A stretch of 64,000 bases of DNA from Ectopseudomonas chengduensis (GTDB taxonomy: Bacteria; Pseudomonadota; Gammaproteobacteria; Pseudomonadales; Pseudomonadaceae): contig NZ_FMZQ01000006.1 of assembly GCF_900102635.1 (NCBI RefSeq), forward strand, positions 62,001-126,000. The letters are read 5' to 3'. Numbering within the stretch: the stretch's first letter is position 1; the number at the start of each line of letters is the position of its first letter. Shown in pieces: positions 2,740-43,694 of this stretch. Below the pieces are notes generated by a model. It had not been told where the DNA came from and did no database searches. It saw nothing but the letters and a program-made list of their open reading frames with translations. The position numbers and the translations under genes were made by a program.

Positions 2740-4983
2740 ATGGTTCAGGTGAGAGCGCATCAGCCAGTCAACGATGACGGCAGCATCAATCTCGAGGCCT
2801 GGTTGGAGCATGTCACGCGCGTCGATCCGGCGCTGGATCGTCAGGCGTTGCAAGAAGCCTGCGAATTCGCCCGTGATCTGGAGCAGCAGGCCAACACCAC
2901 ACCGCATCACTGGAGTGAGGACGCATCGACATTCCGCGCCGGTCTCGATATCGCGGAAATCCTCGCTGATCTCAAGCTCGATCAGGATTCGCTGGTCGCG
3001 GCGATCATTTATCGCGGCGTGCGTGAAGGCAAGATCACCCTGGCCGCGGTGCATCAGCGCTTCGGTCCTGTGGTGGCCAAGCTGATCGAAGGCGTGCTGC
3101 GCATGGCGGCGATCAGTGCCAGTATCAATCCGCGTGAATCGGTGGTGCTCGGCTCGCAGACGCAGGTCGAGAATCTGCGCAAGATGCTGGTGGCCATGGT
3201 CGATGACGTGCGCGTGGCGCTGATCAAACTGGCCGAGCGTACCTGCGCCATTCGCGCGGTCAAGGAAGCCGACGAAGAGAAGCGTCAGCGCGTGGCGCGC
3301 GAGGTGTTCGACATCTACGCACCGCTGGCTCACCGCCTGGGCATCGGCCATATCAAGTGGGAGCTGGAAGATCTGTCCTTCCGCTACCTGGAGCCGGAGC
3401 AGTACAAGCAGATCGCCAAGCTGCTGCACGAGCGCCGTCTCGACCGCGAGCAGTACATCAACGACGCCATGGCGAATTTGCGTCAGGAGCTGGAGGCCAC
3501 CGGCATCAAGGCCGACATCAGTGGTCGGGCGAAACACATCTATTCGATCTGGCGCAAGATGCAGCGCAAGGGCCTGCAGTTCAGCCAGATCTATGACGTA
3601 CGCGCGGTGCGCGTGCTGGTGCCGGAGGTGCGCGACTGCTACACCACCCTGGGCATCGTGCACACCCTGTGGCGACACATTCCCAAGGAATTCGACGACT
3701 ACATCGCCAACCCCAAGGAAAACGGCTACCGCTCGCTGCACACCGCCGTGCTCGGGCCGGAGGGCAAGGTGCTGGAGGTGCAGATCCGCACCCATGCCAT
3801 GCACGAAGAAGCCGAGCTGGGGGTTTGCGCGCATTGGCGCTACAAGGGCACCGACGTCAAATCCGGCTCCAACCACTACGAAGAGAAGATCTCCTGGCTG
3901 CGCCAGGTCATCGAGTGGCACGAGGAACTGGGCGATATCGGCGGTCTGGCCGAACAGCTGCGCGTCGATATCGAGCCGGATCGGGTTTACGTGTTCACCC
4001 CCGACGGCCACGCCATCGATCTGCCCAAGGGCGCCACGCCGCTGGACTTCGCCTACCGCGTGCACACCGAGATCGGCCACAACTGCCGGGGCGCCAAGAT
4101 CAACGGCCGCATCGTGCCGCTGACCTACAGTCTGCAAACCGGTGAGCAGGTGGAAATCATCACCAGCAAGCAGGGTACGCCCAGCCGCGACTGGCTCAAC
4201 CCCAACCTGGGTTATGTCACCACCAGCCGCGCACGGGCGAAGATCGTCCACTGGTTCAAGCTGCAGGATCGCGACCAGAACGTCGCCGCCGGCAAGCAGT
4301 TGCTCGAGCGCGAGCTGGCGCGCCTGGCCCTGGTCGGTGCGGACTTCGACAAGCTGGCCGAGAAGGCCAACCTGAAAACCGCCGAGGATCTGTTCGCTGC
4401 CTTGGGCGCCGGCGACGTGCGCCTGGCCCATGCGGCCAACCTGGCTCAGCAACTGCTCGAGCCGGAACGCAGCAACGAGCAACTGGAGCTGATCCCGCGC
4501 AAGGCGCAGGGCTTCAAGCCGGGCAAGCGTGGCGATATCCAGATCCAGGGGGTCGGCAACCTGCTGACGCAGATGGCCGGCTGTTGCCAGCCGCTGCCGG
4601 GCGATCCGATCGTCGGTTACATCACCCTCGGTCGTGGCGTCACCATTCACCGTCAGGACTGTCCTACGGCGTTGCAGCAGACTGCGCGCGAGCCGGAGCG
4701 GATGATTCAGGTGAACTGGGGACCGGTGCCGGTGCAGACCTATCCGGTGGAAATCGTCATCAAGGCCTACGACCGTTCCGGTCTGCTGCGTGACGTGACC
4801 CAGGTGCTGCTCAACGAGAAGCTCAACGTGCTGGCAGTCAACACTCGCTCGAACAAGGAGGACAACACCGCCTCCATGTCGATCACCGTGGAGATTCCCG
4901 GGCTCGATGCACTTGGCCGTCTGCTGGCGCGTATCGGTCAGTTGCCCAATATCATCGAGGCGCGTCGCCACCGCGTGTCCTAG
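2740..4983 (+). CDS. relA: (p)ppGpp synthetase RelA
   Basis: RelA is the ribosome-associated stringent-response enzyme that transfers pyrophosphate from ATP to GDP or GTP on amino-acid starvation. The 747-residue length matches RelA. The N-terminal hydrolase-like domain is degenerate: where SpoT carries the metal-binding HD pair, this protein has YR in IIYRGVREG, so it should be synthetase-only. The synthetase domain spans about residues 260-370 (IYDVRAVRV, NGYRSLHT, QIRTHAMHEEAE). TGS is near 415-477 and a C-terminal ACT/RRM domain near 667-747. A GGAAGG ribosome site precedes the ATG. The stop codon TAG belongs to the CTAG target duplication of the type B repeat at 4984-5168. Confidence 0.96.
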   Translation: MVQVRAHQPVNDDGSINLEAWLEHVTRVDPALDRQALQEACEFARDLEQQANTTPHHWSEDASTFRAGLDIAEILADLKLDQDSLVAAIIYRGVREGKITLAAVHQRFGPVVAKLIEGVLRMAAISASINPRESVVLGSQTQVENLRKMLVAMVDDVRVALIKLAERTCAIRAVKEADEEKRQRVAREVFDIYAPLAHRLGIGHIKWELEDLSFRYLEPEQYKQIAKLLHERRLDREQYINDAMANLRQELEATGIKADISGRAKHIYSIWRKMQRKGLQFSQIYDVRAVRVLVPEVRDCYTTLGIVHTLWRHIPKEFDDYIANPKENGYRSLHTAVLGPEGKVLEVQIRTHAMHEEAELGVCAHWRYKGTDVKSGSNHYEEKISWLRQVIEWHEELGDIGGLAEQLRVDIEPDRVYVFTPDGHAIDLPKGATPLDFAYRVHTEIGHNCRGAKINGRIVPLTYSLQTGEQVEIITSKQGTPSRDWLNPNLGYVTTSRARAKIVHWFKLQDRDQNVAAGKQLLERELARLALVGADFDKLAEKANLKTAEDLFAALGAGDVRLAHAANLAQQLLEPERSNEQLELIPRKAQGFKPGKRGDIQIQGVGNLLTQMAGCCQPLPGDPIVGYITLGRGVTIHRQDCPTALQQTAREPERMIQVNWGPVPVQTYPVEIVIKAYDRSGLLRDVTQVLLNEKLNVLAVNTRSNKEDNTASMSITVEIPGLDALGRLLARIGQLPNIIEARRHRVS

Positions 4984-5168
4984 GCTTCGTACGGAAAGTG
5001 CCTACGCTCGGTGATGCTGCGTTGAAATCGCTCTGGTACGCCAGCCCGGTCAGAATGCTCATTTACAACACGTAAACTCGAATGCGAGCCCAGTCCGTTC
5101 TTCGAGCGATTTCGCGGGGCCGCCATCGGTATTGCCTGACCTTCGCTCGACGACTTTTCGTACAAACC
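4984..5168 (+). mobile_element. Type B MITE-like element, copy B1 (relA-mazG gap)
   Basis: A 185-bp element flanked by the direct repeat CTAG at 4980-4983 and 5169-5172. Its ends are imperfect inverted repeats of about 20 bp around GTACGNAAAGT. It contains the core ATGCTCATTTACAACACGTA shared with all six copies in the window. It is about 85 per cent like copy B2 by eye. The left CTAG contains the relA stop codon, and the right end lies 15 bases before the mazG ATG. It has no coding capacity. Confidence 0.85.
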
Positions 5169-5183
5169 CTAGCGAGAGCTTTC

Positions 5184-13156: not shown

Positions 13157-13296
13157 CAGGCTGTTGAAAAACTACCTGCGTTGCCATTGCTGCGTTAAAA
13201 ACAGGCTCAAAATGCTCATTTACAACTCGTAAACTGCGCTTTTTCGCCTGTTTTTGCCTTGCACTGGCTGCCTCGGCTACGTTTTTCAACGGCCTG
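13157..13296 (+). mobile_element. Type A MITE-like element, copy A1 (after moeA)
   Basis: A 140-bp element. The ends CAGGCTGTTGAAAAAC and (inverted) CAGGCCGTTGAAAAAC match at 15 of 16 positions. CTAG lies on both sides (13153-13156 and 13297-13300). The core TGCTCATTTACAACTCGTAA is central, and the inner arms GAAAAAC/GTTTTTC give a nearly continuous hairpin. The moeA stop codon is the TAG of the left flank. No coding capacity. Confidence 0.9.
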
Positions 13297-13449
13297 CTAG
13301 CGCCTGAAACGCCCGGCTGCAGGCATGGTCGGGCGCTTTAGATGGCGCGGCGAAACTACTGGGTCACATTTCTAACGATAGAATTTGCAAATGGGCCTTG
13401 TAGAAGGCATAGTCGCCGACTTGTAAATTCAACCGACACGGTCGTGCCC

Positions 13450-14070
13450 ATGCTAAAACGCTTCGCACCCCTCGTGCCTCTTGCACTCACAGTCTTGCTC
13501 GCTGCCTGCGCCGGCCACTCGCCGCAACCGCAGACAGACGACGCTACGGCCGAGCCAGTTGCTCGCCCGCTCTCTCAGCAGGTTGAGCCTGCCGACGATG
13601 AAATCACCGCGCTGATCGACGACAAACCCTATGAAATGCCGCAGCTGGCAGACAGCCTGCTCGATCTCGGGCGTTCGCTGATCGGCACGCGCTATCGCTA
13701 CGGTGGCACCTCGGTGCAATCCGGTTTCGATTGCAGCGGTTTTGTCGGCTACTTGTTCCGCGAGGAAGTCGGCCTGGAACTACCACGTTCCACGCGTGAG
13801 CTGATCAACCTCGATGCGCCGAAGGTGGCGCGCGCCGATCTGGAGCCGGGTGATCTGATCCTGTTCAATGATCGTGGTCGTGGTCGCGTCAGTCATGCCG
13901 GCATCTATCTGGGTGATGACCAGTTCATCCACTCCAGCAGCAGCCGCAGCGGTGGTGTGCGTATCGACAGCCTCGACGACAGCTACTGGAACCGTAGTTA
14001 TCTGCAGGCCAAGCGCGTCCTCGCGCTGGCTCCGGTGGAAGAGCAGGTCGCCGCCAAGCGCAACAACTGA
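13450..14070 (+). CDS. NlpC/P60 lipoprotein endopeptidase (MepS-like)
   Basis: A 206-residue lipoprotein: the signal peptide ends in lipobox LLAAC, then a Pro/Gln/Glu-rich linker leads to an NlpC/P60 domain. The catalytic cysteine is in SGFDCSGFVGYLF, the catalytic histidine in RVSHAGIYLG, and the third polar residue probably in FIHSS. Family members cut D,L or L,D peptide bonds in murein stems. The open frame extends to 13342, but only 13450 gives a proper lipoprotein signal. A paralogous gene follows after 85 bases. Confidence 0.9.
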   Translation: MLKRFAPLVPLALTVLLAACAGHSPQPQTDDATAEPVARPLSQQVEPADDEITALIDDKPYEMPQLADSLLDLGRSLIGTRYRYGGTSVQSGFDCSGFVGYLFREEVGLELPRSTRELINLDAPKVARADLEPGDLILFNDRGRGRVSHAGIYLGDDQFIHSSSSRSGGVRIDSLDDSYWNRSYLQAKRVLALAPVEEQVAAKRNN

Positions 14071-14155: not shown

Positions 14156-14680
14156 ATGCCCGTCACGACCCGTGTTGCCCTCATCGCTCTCGTTCTGCTG
14201 CTGAGTGCCTGCAGCAGTCGCGCTCCCTCTCCCCAGCCCAGTTACACCCCTCCAGTCTCTTCGTCGTCTTATCAGGGCGGCGCTGAAGACGTGCTGTTCC
14301 GTGCCCTCGGTCTGGTCGGTACGCCGTATCGCTATGGTGGCAATACCCCGGAAGGTGGTTTCGACTGCAGTGGCCTGATCGGCTACGTTTATCGTGATGC
14401 TGCCGGTATCAGTCTGCCGCGTTCGACGCGTGAGCTGAGTGCCATGCGCACCCCTGATGTCCGCCGCGACGCCTTGAAAAGTGGTGACTTGGTGTTCTTT
14501 GCCACCAATGGTGGTCGCGCCGTCAGTCATGCCGGGATCTATGTCGGTGACGGCCGCTTCGTTCATGCCCCCTCCACCGGCGGTACCGTGCGCCTGGACA
14601 GCCTCACCAGCGGTTACTGGCAGGGCGTCTATCTCGATGCCAAGCGGGTCATCACCCCAGAGCTCGCGCGTAATCCCTGA
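14156..14680 (+). CDS. NlpC/P60 lipoprotein endopeptidase, second copy
   Basis: A 174-residue paralogue of the preceding gene. It has signal peptide with lipobox LLSAC, a Ser/Pro linker, and an NlpC/P60 domain with GGFDCSGLIGYVY (nucleophile), AVSHAGIYVG (histidine) and RFVHAPSTGG. The two proteins share TPYRYGG/TRYRYGG and LPRSTREL, indicating a tandem duplication. Expected role: remodelling of peptidoglycan at the outer-membrane periplasmic face. Confidence 0.9.
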   Translation: MPVTTRVALIALVLLLSACSSRAPSPQPSYTPPVSSSSYQGGAEDVLFRALGLVGTPYRYGGNTPEGGFDCSGLIGYVYRDAAGISLPRSTRELSAMRTPDVRRDALKSGDLVFFATNGGRAVSHAGIYVGDGRFVHAPSTGGTVRLDSLTSGYWQGVYLDAKRVITPELARNP

Positions 14681-15017: not shown

Positions 15018-15047
15018 TTGACGGGCAGGGCTGCCAGCCTCTACCCT
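15018..15047 (+). promoter_or_regulatory. Sigma-70 promoter candidate for the cob operon
   Basis: TTGACG, 18 bases, then TACCCT. Initiation would fall near 15054, immediately upstream of the first conserved riboswitch segment. Confidence 0.45.
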
Positions 15048-15057
15048 GCGCGCCTTG

Positions 15058-15384
15058 CTTCAGGTGCCCCGCGTTGCCGTGAATGGCGGCCAAGGGGTGA
15101 AACAGGGAAGCCGGTTCCAATGCCGGCGCTGCCCCCGCAACGGTAGGTGAGTCAAACGCTGCTTAAGCAGACCGTGTGAAAACGTAGCGAGCGAAGGTCA
15201 GGCAAGGCAAAAACAGGCGAAAAAGCGGAGTTTACGAGCTGTAAATGAGCATTTTGAGACTGTTTTTAACGCCGCATGGCCGAGCGCAGTAGTTTTCACG
15301 CAGTCTGCAAAGCCACTGTGCTATGCACGGGAAGGCGCGGCGCAGAACCCATGGTTCGCTCACAAGCCCGGAGACCGGCCTGTC
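15058..15384 (+). promoter_or_regulatory. Cobalamin riboswitch interrupted by a 140-bp repeat
   Basis: Conserved elements appear in the right order: the 5' strand TTCAGGTGCCCC; GGGAAGCCGG...CCGGCGCTGCCCCCGCAACGGTA (15105-15145); then, after the insertion, GCCACTGTGC, GGGAAGGC, and the B12 box AGCCCGGAGACCGGCCT at 15365-15381. Without the repeat the aptamer would be about 187 nt, a normal size. The insert lies in a peripheral, length-variable arm between the CGCAAC core and GCCACTG. The element is itself a hairpin, so the aptamer could still fold. It precedes a complete cobalamin operon, the expected target of repression by adenosylcobalamin. Confidence 0.9.
15168..15307 (-). mobile_element. 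Type A MITE-like element, copy A2 (inside riboswitch)
   Basis: Exactly 140 bp, like A1 and A3, in reverse orientation. Ends are CAGACCGTGTGAAAAC and (inverted) CAGACTGCGTGAAAAC. The core TTTACGAGCTGTAAATGAGC is present. The flanks TAAG and CAAA are only partly alike, and the tips have drifted from the other copies, suggesting an older insertion. Confidence 0.85.
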
Positions 15385-15588
15385 GCAGTTTCACGGCATC
15401 GCGGAGGGCGCTGTCCGGCCAACGCTCCGGTTCTACCGGGTGCGTTCGTGTTGTTTCGTCTTCCGCTCGCCTGACCAGCCATTGGTGCCTGGATGAGTGC
15501 GTGCGGATCATCGCGATCTTCTTCCTCATTGCCGTTCGTACTGTTCGAGGAACAGGCGGCGCGGGTGCCTGACGTGCAGGAGCACAGC
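15385..15588 (+). other. Leader between B12 box and cobO
   Basis: About 200 bases of 5' untranslated region. It should contain the riboswitch expression platform. I cannot point to a convincing intrinsic terminator with a T-run, so control may be at translation of cobO or by Rho. The ribosome site CAGGAG is at 15577-15582. Confidence 0.4.
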
Positions 15589-16200
15589 ATGAGTGAGACC
15601 GCCGAACGCGACGCCCGCCACAAGGCGCGCATGCAACGCAAGAAAGCCCTGATCGACGAAAAGATCGCCCAGGCCCAGGACGAATACGGCCTGCTACTGG
15701 TGCACAGCGGCAATGGCAAGGGCAAGAGCAGCAGCGCCTTCGGCATGGTCGCGCGCGCCCTTGGCCATGGCATCAAGGTCGGCGTGGTGCAGTTCATCAA
15801 GGGGGCGGCCAGCACCGGTGAAGAAACCTTCTTCCGCCGTTTCCCCGAGGAAGTCAGCTATCACGTGATGGGCGAAGGCTTCACCTGGGAAACCCAGGAT
15901 CGCCAGCGCGATATCGCCAAGGCGCAGCAAGCCTGGGCCGTGGCCCGGCATCTGCTCAGCGATGAGTCGGTCGGCCTGGTGGTGCTGGATGAGTTGAACA
16001 TCGCCCTCAAGCATGGCTACCTCGAACTGGACACGGTGCTGGCTGATATCGAAGCGCGCCCGCTGTTGCAGCACGTGGTGGTGACCGGCCGTGGCGCGTT
16101 GCCAGGCATGCTCGAGGCGGCTGACACCGTCACCGAAATGAGCCTGGTCAAGCATGCGTTCAAGTCTGGAGTAAAAGCACAGAAGGGCATCGAATTCTGA
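15589..16200 (+). CDS. cobO: Cob(I)yrinic acid a,c-diamide adenosyltransferase CobO
   Basis: It adenosylates the corrinoid cobalt using ATP (CobA/BtuR family). The 203-residue protein has an unusual P-loop GNGKGKSSSAFG at about residues 41-52, VVQFIKG, the Mg-site VVLDELNIALK, and the C-terminal TGRGALPGMLEAADTVTEM. The start is set by the CAGGAG site seven bases upstream. The annotated frame to 15493 would run through the leader. It is the first gene of the cob operon and overlaps cobB by one base. Confidence 0.95.
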   Translation: MSETAERDARHKARMQRKKALIDEKIAQAQDEYGLLLVHSGNGKGKSSSAFGMVARALGHGIKVGVVQFIKGAASTGEETFFRRFPEEVSYHVMGEGFTWETQDRQRDIAKAQQAWAVARHLLSDESVGLVVLDELNIALKHGYLELDTVLADIEARPLLQHVVVTGRGALPGMLEAADTVTEMSLVKHAFKSGVKAQKGIEF

Positions 16201-26204: not shown

Positions 26205-26326
26205 GCCACAGGGTACTGCTGTTCGCCGGCCTGACGCTGGGCTTTGGTCTACTGTTGGCGCTGGCCTGGTGGGGCTGGCGCCAGGGTGGGTTGGCTTTGC
26301 TGCAGTTGGGCATCGGTATCTGCTAG
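26201..26326 (+). CDS. 41-residue single-span membrane protein
   Basis: A short frame starting GTG in a 4-base GTGA overlap with the MFS gene, with AAGGTG seven bases upstream. The product is one hydrophobic helix (residues 5-24, LLFAGLTLGFGLLLALAWW) with GWRQGGLALLQLGIGIC at the end. The overlap, ribosome site and clean helix argue for a real gene, perhaps an accessory subunit. Its TAG stop is in the CTAG flank of repeat B2. Confidence 0.65.
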   Translation: MSHRVLLFAGLTLGFGLLLALAWWGWRQGGLALLQLGIGIC

Positions 26327-26510
26327 GTTCTGCACGATAAGTGCCTGCGCTCGTTGATGCTGCGTTAAAAACGGGCTGGAACGCCAGCCCGGTCGAATGC
26401 TCATTTACAACTCGTAAACTCGAATGCGAGCCCAGTCCGTTCCTCACCCGTTTTTGTGGGGCCGCCATCGGTATCGCCTGACCTTCGCTCGACGACTTTT
26501 CGTACAGACC
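26327..26510 (+). mobile_element. Type B MITE-like element, copy B2
   Basis: A 184-bp element closely related to B1. Its left end is GTTCTGCACGATAAGTGCC, and its right end (inverted) is GGTCTGTACGAAAAGTCG. The flanks CTAG (26323-26326) and CGAG (26511-26514) differ by one base. The shared core TGCTCATTTACAACTCGTAA is present. Confidence 0.82.
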
Positions 26511-26576
26511 CGAGTTGCTTGCGTCTGGGCCTGCGAGTAGCGTGGTGGAATCGCGTCATTGCCCGAGGTCACTGCC

Positions 26577-39926: not shown

Positions 39927-40066
39927 CAGGCCCTTGAAAAACGTAGGCGAGGCAGGCAAGACAAGGCAAAAAAAGCCGAAAAAGCGCAGTTTACATGCTG
40001 TAAATGAGCATTTTGAGGCTTTTTTTAACGCAGTATTGCCAACGCAGGTAGTTTTTCAACGGCCTG
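39927..40066 (-). mobile_element. Type A MITE-like element, copy A3 (after ycgL)
   Basis: Exactly 140 bp. Ends are CAGGCCCTTGAAAAAC and (inverted) CAGGCCGTTGAAAAAC. It is flanked by the non-palindromic direct repeat GTAA at 39923-39926 and 40067-40070, the clearest proof of a 4-bp target duplication. Reverse orientation, with core TTTACATGCTGTAAATGAGC. Confidence 0.92.
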
Positions 40067-43524: not shown

Positions 43525-43694
43525 CAGGCTGTTGAAAAACTACCTACGTTGGCAATACTGCGTCAAAAACGGCCTCGCGTGCGAGCCCAGTCAAAATGCT
43601 CATTTACAACTCGTAAAGTCGATCGCGACTCCGAGCGTTTTTCGGCCGTGTTTTCCTTGTCTTGCCTGCCTCGCCTACGTTCTTCAACGGCCTG
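43525..43694 (+). mobile_element. Type A MITE-like element, copy A4
   Basis: A 170-bp element flanked by CTAG at 43521-43524 and 43695-43698. Ends are CAGGCTGTTGAAAAAC and (inverted) CAGGCCGTTGAAGAAC. It is 30 bp longer than A1-A3; the extra bases flank the core, on the left GCGTGCGAGCCCAGTC, a motif otherwise seen in type B. It therefore looks intermediate between the two types. Confidence 0.87.

Follow-up and report, generated by a model that had tools for sequence, protein, structure and literature searches.

The nearest described element is MITEPsy1 of Pseudomonas syringae (PMC3189936). Like the element analyzed in this work, MITEPsy1 is short and non-coding with inverted repeats, and its 4-bp TSD (CTAG/YTAA) is the one found in a sister subfamily of our element. 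It was tentatively attributed to an IS5-family transposase and is active in vivo. With 100 bp it is shorter than the 140 bp observed here, its terminal repeats differ, and no riboswitch insertion was found in the passages of its account considered here. QMITE, BOX, SPRITE, and Correia elements, too, are RNA-structured bacterial MITEs, repeats that form hairpins and become part of mRNAs (PMC10969869). The same 2024 review of MITEs considered MITE-formed riboswitches conceivable and cited T-box-like motifs in BOX elements. In contrast to these repeats, the MITE described here is located inside an existing conserved riboswitch aptamer, for which orthologues with an empty site are available. Text searches of the open-licence literature yielded no published MITE inside a riboswitch aptamer. 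For cobalamin riboswitches, P2-L2, P4-L4, and the P6 accessory region are subdomains that were swapped experimentally between different RNAs (PMC9600662). Both the length of the P6 accessory region and the number of its stems vary greatly (PMC9600662).

The cobalamin riboswitch and the inserted element

All positions refer to the window, the whole 64,000-nucleotide stretch of DNA analyzed; the features of the riboswitch, the operon, and the 140-bp element family are on the plus strand. In cmscan, positions 15045 to 15397 matched a single cobalamin aptamer, RF00174, with 60.3 bits (E 1.8e-12), which passes the gathering score of 31.5 bits, and the alignment contained a 147-nt insertion. The L5 loop GCCCCCGC (15131 to 15138, from sequence reading), the B12 box AGCCCGGAGACCGGCCTG (15365 to 15382), and L13 GCGGAGGGC (15401 to 15409), the kissing partner complementary to L5, were all present. 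With its full set of core motifs, the L5/L13 complementarity, and its location before cobO, the RNA resembles adenosylcobalamin-type RF00174 riboswitches, from which it differs by a third helix that a mobile element has contributed to the P6 accessory arm. It precedes cobalamin biosynthesis genes starting with cobO (15589 to 16200, NCBIfam NF004637/TIGR00708). The operon is complete, as stated in the first-pass annotation, and comprises cobO, cobB, bluB, cobD, cobC, cobQ, cobU/P, cobT, alpha-ribazole phosphatase, and cobS. A fold of positions 15391 to 15475 (z −3.4) gave a hairpin, AACGCTCCGG..CCGGGTGCGTT (15421 to 15446), a possible terminator part of the expression platform that was not among the reports of a terminator scan. 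L13 is complementary also to GTCTTCCGC at 15458 to 15466. The expression platform thus appears intact, with L13 able to pair with either L5 or the downstream GTCTTCCGC around the GC-rich hairpin, an arrangement from which we infer the exact switching step. Separately, the adjacent NlpC/P60 genes at 13342 to 14070 and 14156 to 14680 have a stretch in common and are likely a tandem duplication.

The first-pass annotation had placed a 140-nt mobile element at 15168 to 15307 within this riboswitch. These coordinates proved exact in alignments with empty orthologues and other family members, which set the true junctions at 15167/15168 and 15307/15308. The element, with the inverted repeats CAGACCGTGTGAAAAC and GTTTTCACGCAGTCTG, has the properties of a MITE, being short, non-coding, and multicopy (41 BLAST matches, at least 40 copies in the genome). 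It is nearly self-complementary, as had been noted, and by itself folds at −53.6 kcal/mol (z −4.9); none of 200 shuffled sequences was equally stable. The family is characterized by 16-bp terminal inverted repeats, 4-bp TSDs, and a usual length of 140 bp; its terminal repeat reads either CAGRCYGTGTGAAAAC or CAGGCYGTTGAAAAAC. The TSDs were analyzed in 42 distinct family members from the genome of the window and its relatives. Perfect 4-bp direct repeats were found in 20 of the 42, and the mean TSD identity was 3.07 of 4 positions, compared with 1.48 after the pairings of left and right flanks had been shuffled. The TSD of the window copy itself has decayed to TAAG on the left (15164 to 15167) and CAAA on the right (15308 to 15311), and the pair in P. 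composti is CAAG/CAAA. The nearest empty orthologues have one CAAA or CAAG where filled alleles have two TSD copies. Three other family members in the window served as evolutionary controls: one 1.9 kb upstream (13157 to 13296), one with the TSD GTAA (39927 to 40066), and one of 170 bp with the TSD CTAG (43525 to 43694). The TSD type CTAG/YTAA, the single link to IS5, would fit a non-autonomous miniature element that is possibly IS5-derived. Inspection of regions of G000 revealed no autonomous parent IS, in which a TIR pair would enclose a gene of transposase size.

Mobility of the element was evident from empty orthologous sites in six related species (G012, G177, G064, G008, G113, and G202). 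Five of these six riboswitches were scored by Rfam and reached 93–102 bits over about 210 nt, far above the filled riboswitches with 39–60 bits. Because element-free orthologues exist in these species, the 140 bp are not an ancestral part of the aptamer. The covariance model did not assign the aptamer to one side of the insert either; it spans the insert instead. Both of these outcomes agree with the first-pass annotation. The P6 accessory region is naturally so variable in length (PMC9600662) that the extra sequence might have been a native long arm of this riboswitch lineage, with no insertion at all; arms of 156–185 nt without an obvious element occur in Paraburkholderia and Nitrotoga. Against the roughly 40 homologous copies in the genome, the inverted repeats, and the family-wide 4-bp TSDs, such an origin is extremely improbable, and at the window locus it is refuted by empty orthologues that differ by precisely the element and the TSD.

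Several other repeats were observed alongside the 140-bp family. A MITE-like element of about 185 bp with the ends GCTTCGTACGGAAAGTGCC and GACTTTTCGTACAAACC occurs twice in the window (4980 to 5172 and 26323 to 26514; about 82–91% alike), has a core motif related to the 140-bp family, and is flanked by a perfect CTAG TSD in the copy at 4980 to 5172. The genome copies L002–L030 share one central core, GCGGAGTTTACGAGCTGTAAATGAGCATT, between differing terminal repeats (CAGGCYGTTGAAAAAC, CAGRCYGTGTGAAAAC, CCTCTAAAAACG, GGCTCTGTACGAAAAGTGCC, and GAACCTGTTCACG), as if several transposases had mobilized one interior. Six family members (L063, L064, L065, L101, L025, and L030) contain extra modules of 10–16 nt at similar arm positions, sometimes in both arms, possibly by template switching or conversion inside the palindrome. 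Between 54391 and 62225, long direct-orientation DNA repeats with 70–86% identity are spaced about 4.4 kb apart, together with short GGCGGCGACGAC-like repeats.

Insertion site and predicted fold

The element splits the aptamer in the manner first described, with the CCGCAAC core on its 5′ side and GCCACTGTGC, GGGAAGGC, and the B12 box on its 3′ side. Because the left end of the element mimics GCCACTG, cmscan misplaces the insert into the terminal loop. Comparison with empty orthologues showed that the 5′ side of the arm has five unpaired nucleotides between the helices CGCTGC/GCGGCG and GCC/GGC, and that the site lies among them. We take the interrupted arm to be the P6 accessory region of PMC9600662, in line with the earlier proposal of a peripheral arm of variable length. 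In the helix below the insert, CGCTGC (15157 to 15162) pairs with GCGGCG (15337 to 15342) with a probability of 0.96 in the presence of the insert, and the helix shows compensatory changes across carriers. The distal arm helices directly above the insert, GCCACTGTGC..GCACGGGAAGGC (15312 to 15336), had a pair probability of 0.98.

Folding was performed with ViennaRNA, whose model does not include the L5-L13 kissing loop/pseudoknot and which predicted P1 poorly in filled and empty RNAs alike. The filled RNA had an MFE of −147.0 kcal/mol, compared with −88.3 kcal/mol after removal of the element and one TSD copy, which restores the exact empty layout from the window allele. The two predicted folds differ by one self-contained hairpin that the filled RNA has in addition: all aptamer pairs were the same, pairing of the element was 100% internal, and its end repeats had a mean pair probability of 0.94. 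Of the first-pass view that the element extends an arm and leaves the core unbroken, the second part is borne out by the intact core pairs in the predicted fold; the first is not, since no existing helix is lengthened and the element opens the 5′-side bulge into a three-way junction.

From these data the following course of events may be proposed. In an ancestor within the P. chengduensis/P. composti group, the unpaired 5′-side bulge of the variable P6 accessory arm would have received the miniature element, and 4 bp (CAAA) would have been duplicated in the process. Since almost the whole length of the element is self-complementary, its transcript would snap into a local hairpin, presumably ahead of the synthesis of the downstream aptamer half. 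The bulge would thereby become a three-way junction without any change to the binding core, to the kissing interaction of L5 with L13, or to the expression platform, so that cobalamin sensing, and with it control by the ligand, could continue. On sequence grounds we consider it probable that the element is a tolerated, self-folding MITE in a variable arm, that the riboswitch still senses cobalamin, and that the element is not required for this. A palindromic MITE belongs to the few kinds of 140-bp insertion that remove themselves from the fold.

Constraint on the switch and on the element

Besides the window, eight genomes were filled at the same site: G063, G078, G271, G370, P. chengduensis, P. 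composti, Pseudomonas sp. P818, and ZH-FAD. They stem from two collections that may overlap, and the sequences of ZH-FAD and G063 could not be told apart over the part that entered the tree. In G328 the middle of the element is gone, and the two ends are kept and still form a 38-nt hairpin (−16.8 kcal/mol). Filled and empty alleles were interleaved in a cobO/cobB tree, where the empty G202 grouped with the filled P. chengduensis (support 0.98). This pattern can be explained either by a single gain and several losses or by movement of alleles through recombination. The flanks of the empty site in G202 are about 97–99% identical to the window; as so near a relative is empty, the element is dispensable and may be mildly costly. 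Two cobalamin riboswitches of G370 contain a family member each, located in the P6 accessory arm of one and in the P2 region of the other (L139).

The first-pass annotation had left it undecided whether the riboswitch is functional or disabled by the insert. A 140-nt insertion within an aptamer is an obvious lesion, and Rfam scores fall sharply in filled alleles, to 38.8 bits with a wrong alignment in G078; the aptamer could then be a relic, with cob expression constitutive or permanently low. This is unlikely considering the pattern of change in the carriers. L5 (GCCCCCGC), L13 (GCGGAGGGC), and the B12 box were invariant in nine carriers and one scar carrier, over a range of 12–28% divergence at 4-fold sites, and the B12 box was also the same in the empty orthologues. 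All changes in the helix below the insert preserve its pairing, which is achieved through different sequences in the carriers (CGCTGC/GCGGCG, CGTCGC/GCGGCG, ACGCTGC/GCAGCGT, and CACCGC/GCGGTG). The ratio of core divergence to 4-fold-site divergence was 0.15 in carriers and 0.22 in empties, and constraint on the carrier cores is therefore not relaxed. With core, L5, L13, and flanking helices preserved in every carrier, compensatory changes included, the sequences favor the functional alternative.

A tolerated passenger was also weighed against an element that has been domesticated, its hairpin tuning the switch through ligand selectivity, folding speed, RNase III cleavage, or pausing, and being kept by selection. 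In six of the eight carriers the element showed only 0–1 differences from the window copy in 140 positions, also between most pairs of species that differ at 12–22% of 4-fold sites, and the ends in G328 remain paired despite the deletion of the middle. In a related riboswitch, swaps of P2-L2 or the P6 accessory region changed corrinoid selectivity (PMC9600662), and by analogy an insert in this arm need not be neutral. The three control copies at unrelated sites in the window, which some of the same relatives share, were about equally conserved, with 0–2 changes (3 in G370), while flanks differed by up to about 10%. Low divergence is thus a property of the family; it is uninformative on riboswitch function, and we rejected it as proof of domestication. 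The element was moreover lost or never kept in G202, and it varies in sequence and length in G370 and P. composti. Taken together, we regard domestication as very unlikely.

Recurrence of repeat insertions in cobalamin riboswitches

When 84,980 species genomes were scanned for a gap of 155–185 nt at the P6 accessory joint, 15 stretches were returned. In Pseudomonas sp. PSB18, whose leader is the same as that of G239, the joint contains a different hairpin repeat with the ends GGGTTAGTACGAAAAGT, and an element of this kind was also found in G102, there in a different riboswitch loop. Yet another hairpin repeat, with the ends GAGCCTGTTCATAAT, occupies the joint in P. oryzihabitans and in an uncultured Pseudomonas; the P. 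oryzihabitans genome has over 25 matches to it. A further distinct element was found in G039, where a second copy (91%) exists elsewhere in the genome. At least three further independent repeat insertions have hence occurred at the same joint, in addition to that of the window clade. Possible additional cases are L094, from a gammaproteobacterial MAG and with a related core, and the hairpins of two MAGs (L091 and L097); the latter two are single-copy in their genomes and were not counted as mobile elements. L092 was rejected as a tandem riboswitch, and the long arms of Nitrotoga and Paraburkholderia, which look native, were not accepted as insertions.

Repeat insertions were also found in other loops of cobalamin riboswitches, namely P2 (L139 in G370), the P4 loop (L146), and the 3′ variable region (L194 and L195); the strict pattern of the search with the 3′ half covered 169 genomes. 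The joint is recurrent and not unique, and it was rejected as a specific target site. A rough estimate, with 40–60 copies per genome, an assumed 0.5 Mb or so of intergenic DNA, and aptamers of about 200 nt, showed no excess over random intergenic landing, which argues for tolerance rather than targeting. Since the searches required intact core motifs, insertions that destroy the core were invisible to them, and the restriction to peripheral sites is no result on the core. The recurrence of independent insertions at the joint and in other peripheral loops goes beyond the first-pass annotation. It is a speculative, rather doubtful extension that riboswitches have repeatedly gained peripheral helices from self-folding MITEs in the course of evolution, with at least four independent insertions at one P6 accessory bulge and others in the 3′ variable loop and in P2 and P4 of cobalamin riboswitches, some of which might alter ligand selectivity or switching kinetics and then be kept.

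One riboswitch is available here in filled, empty, and half-deleted alleles, a natural set for asking how much foreign structure is tolerated and where. These alleles suggest a concrete candidate source of the long-noted length variation in the P6 accessory region. As Rfam scores drop by 30–60 bits and the alignment can be wrong, misdrawing or oversight of such riboswitches is to be expected.
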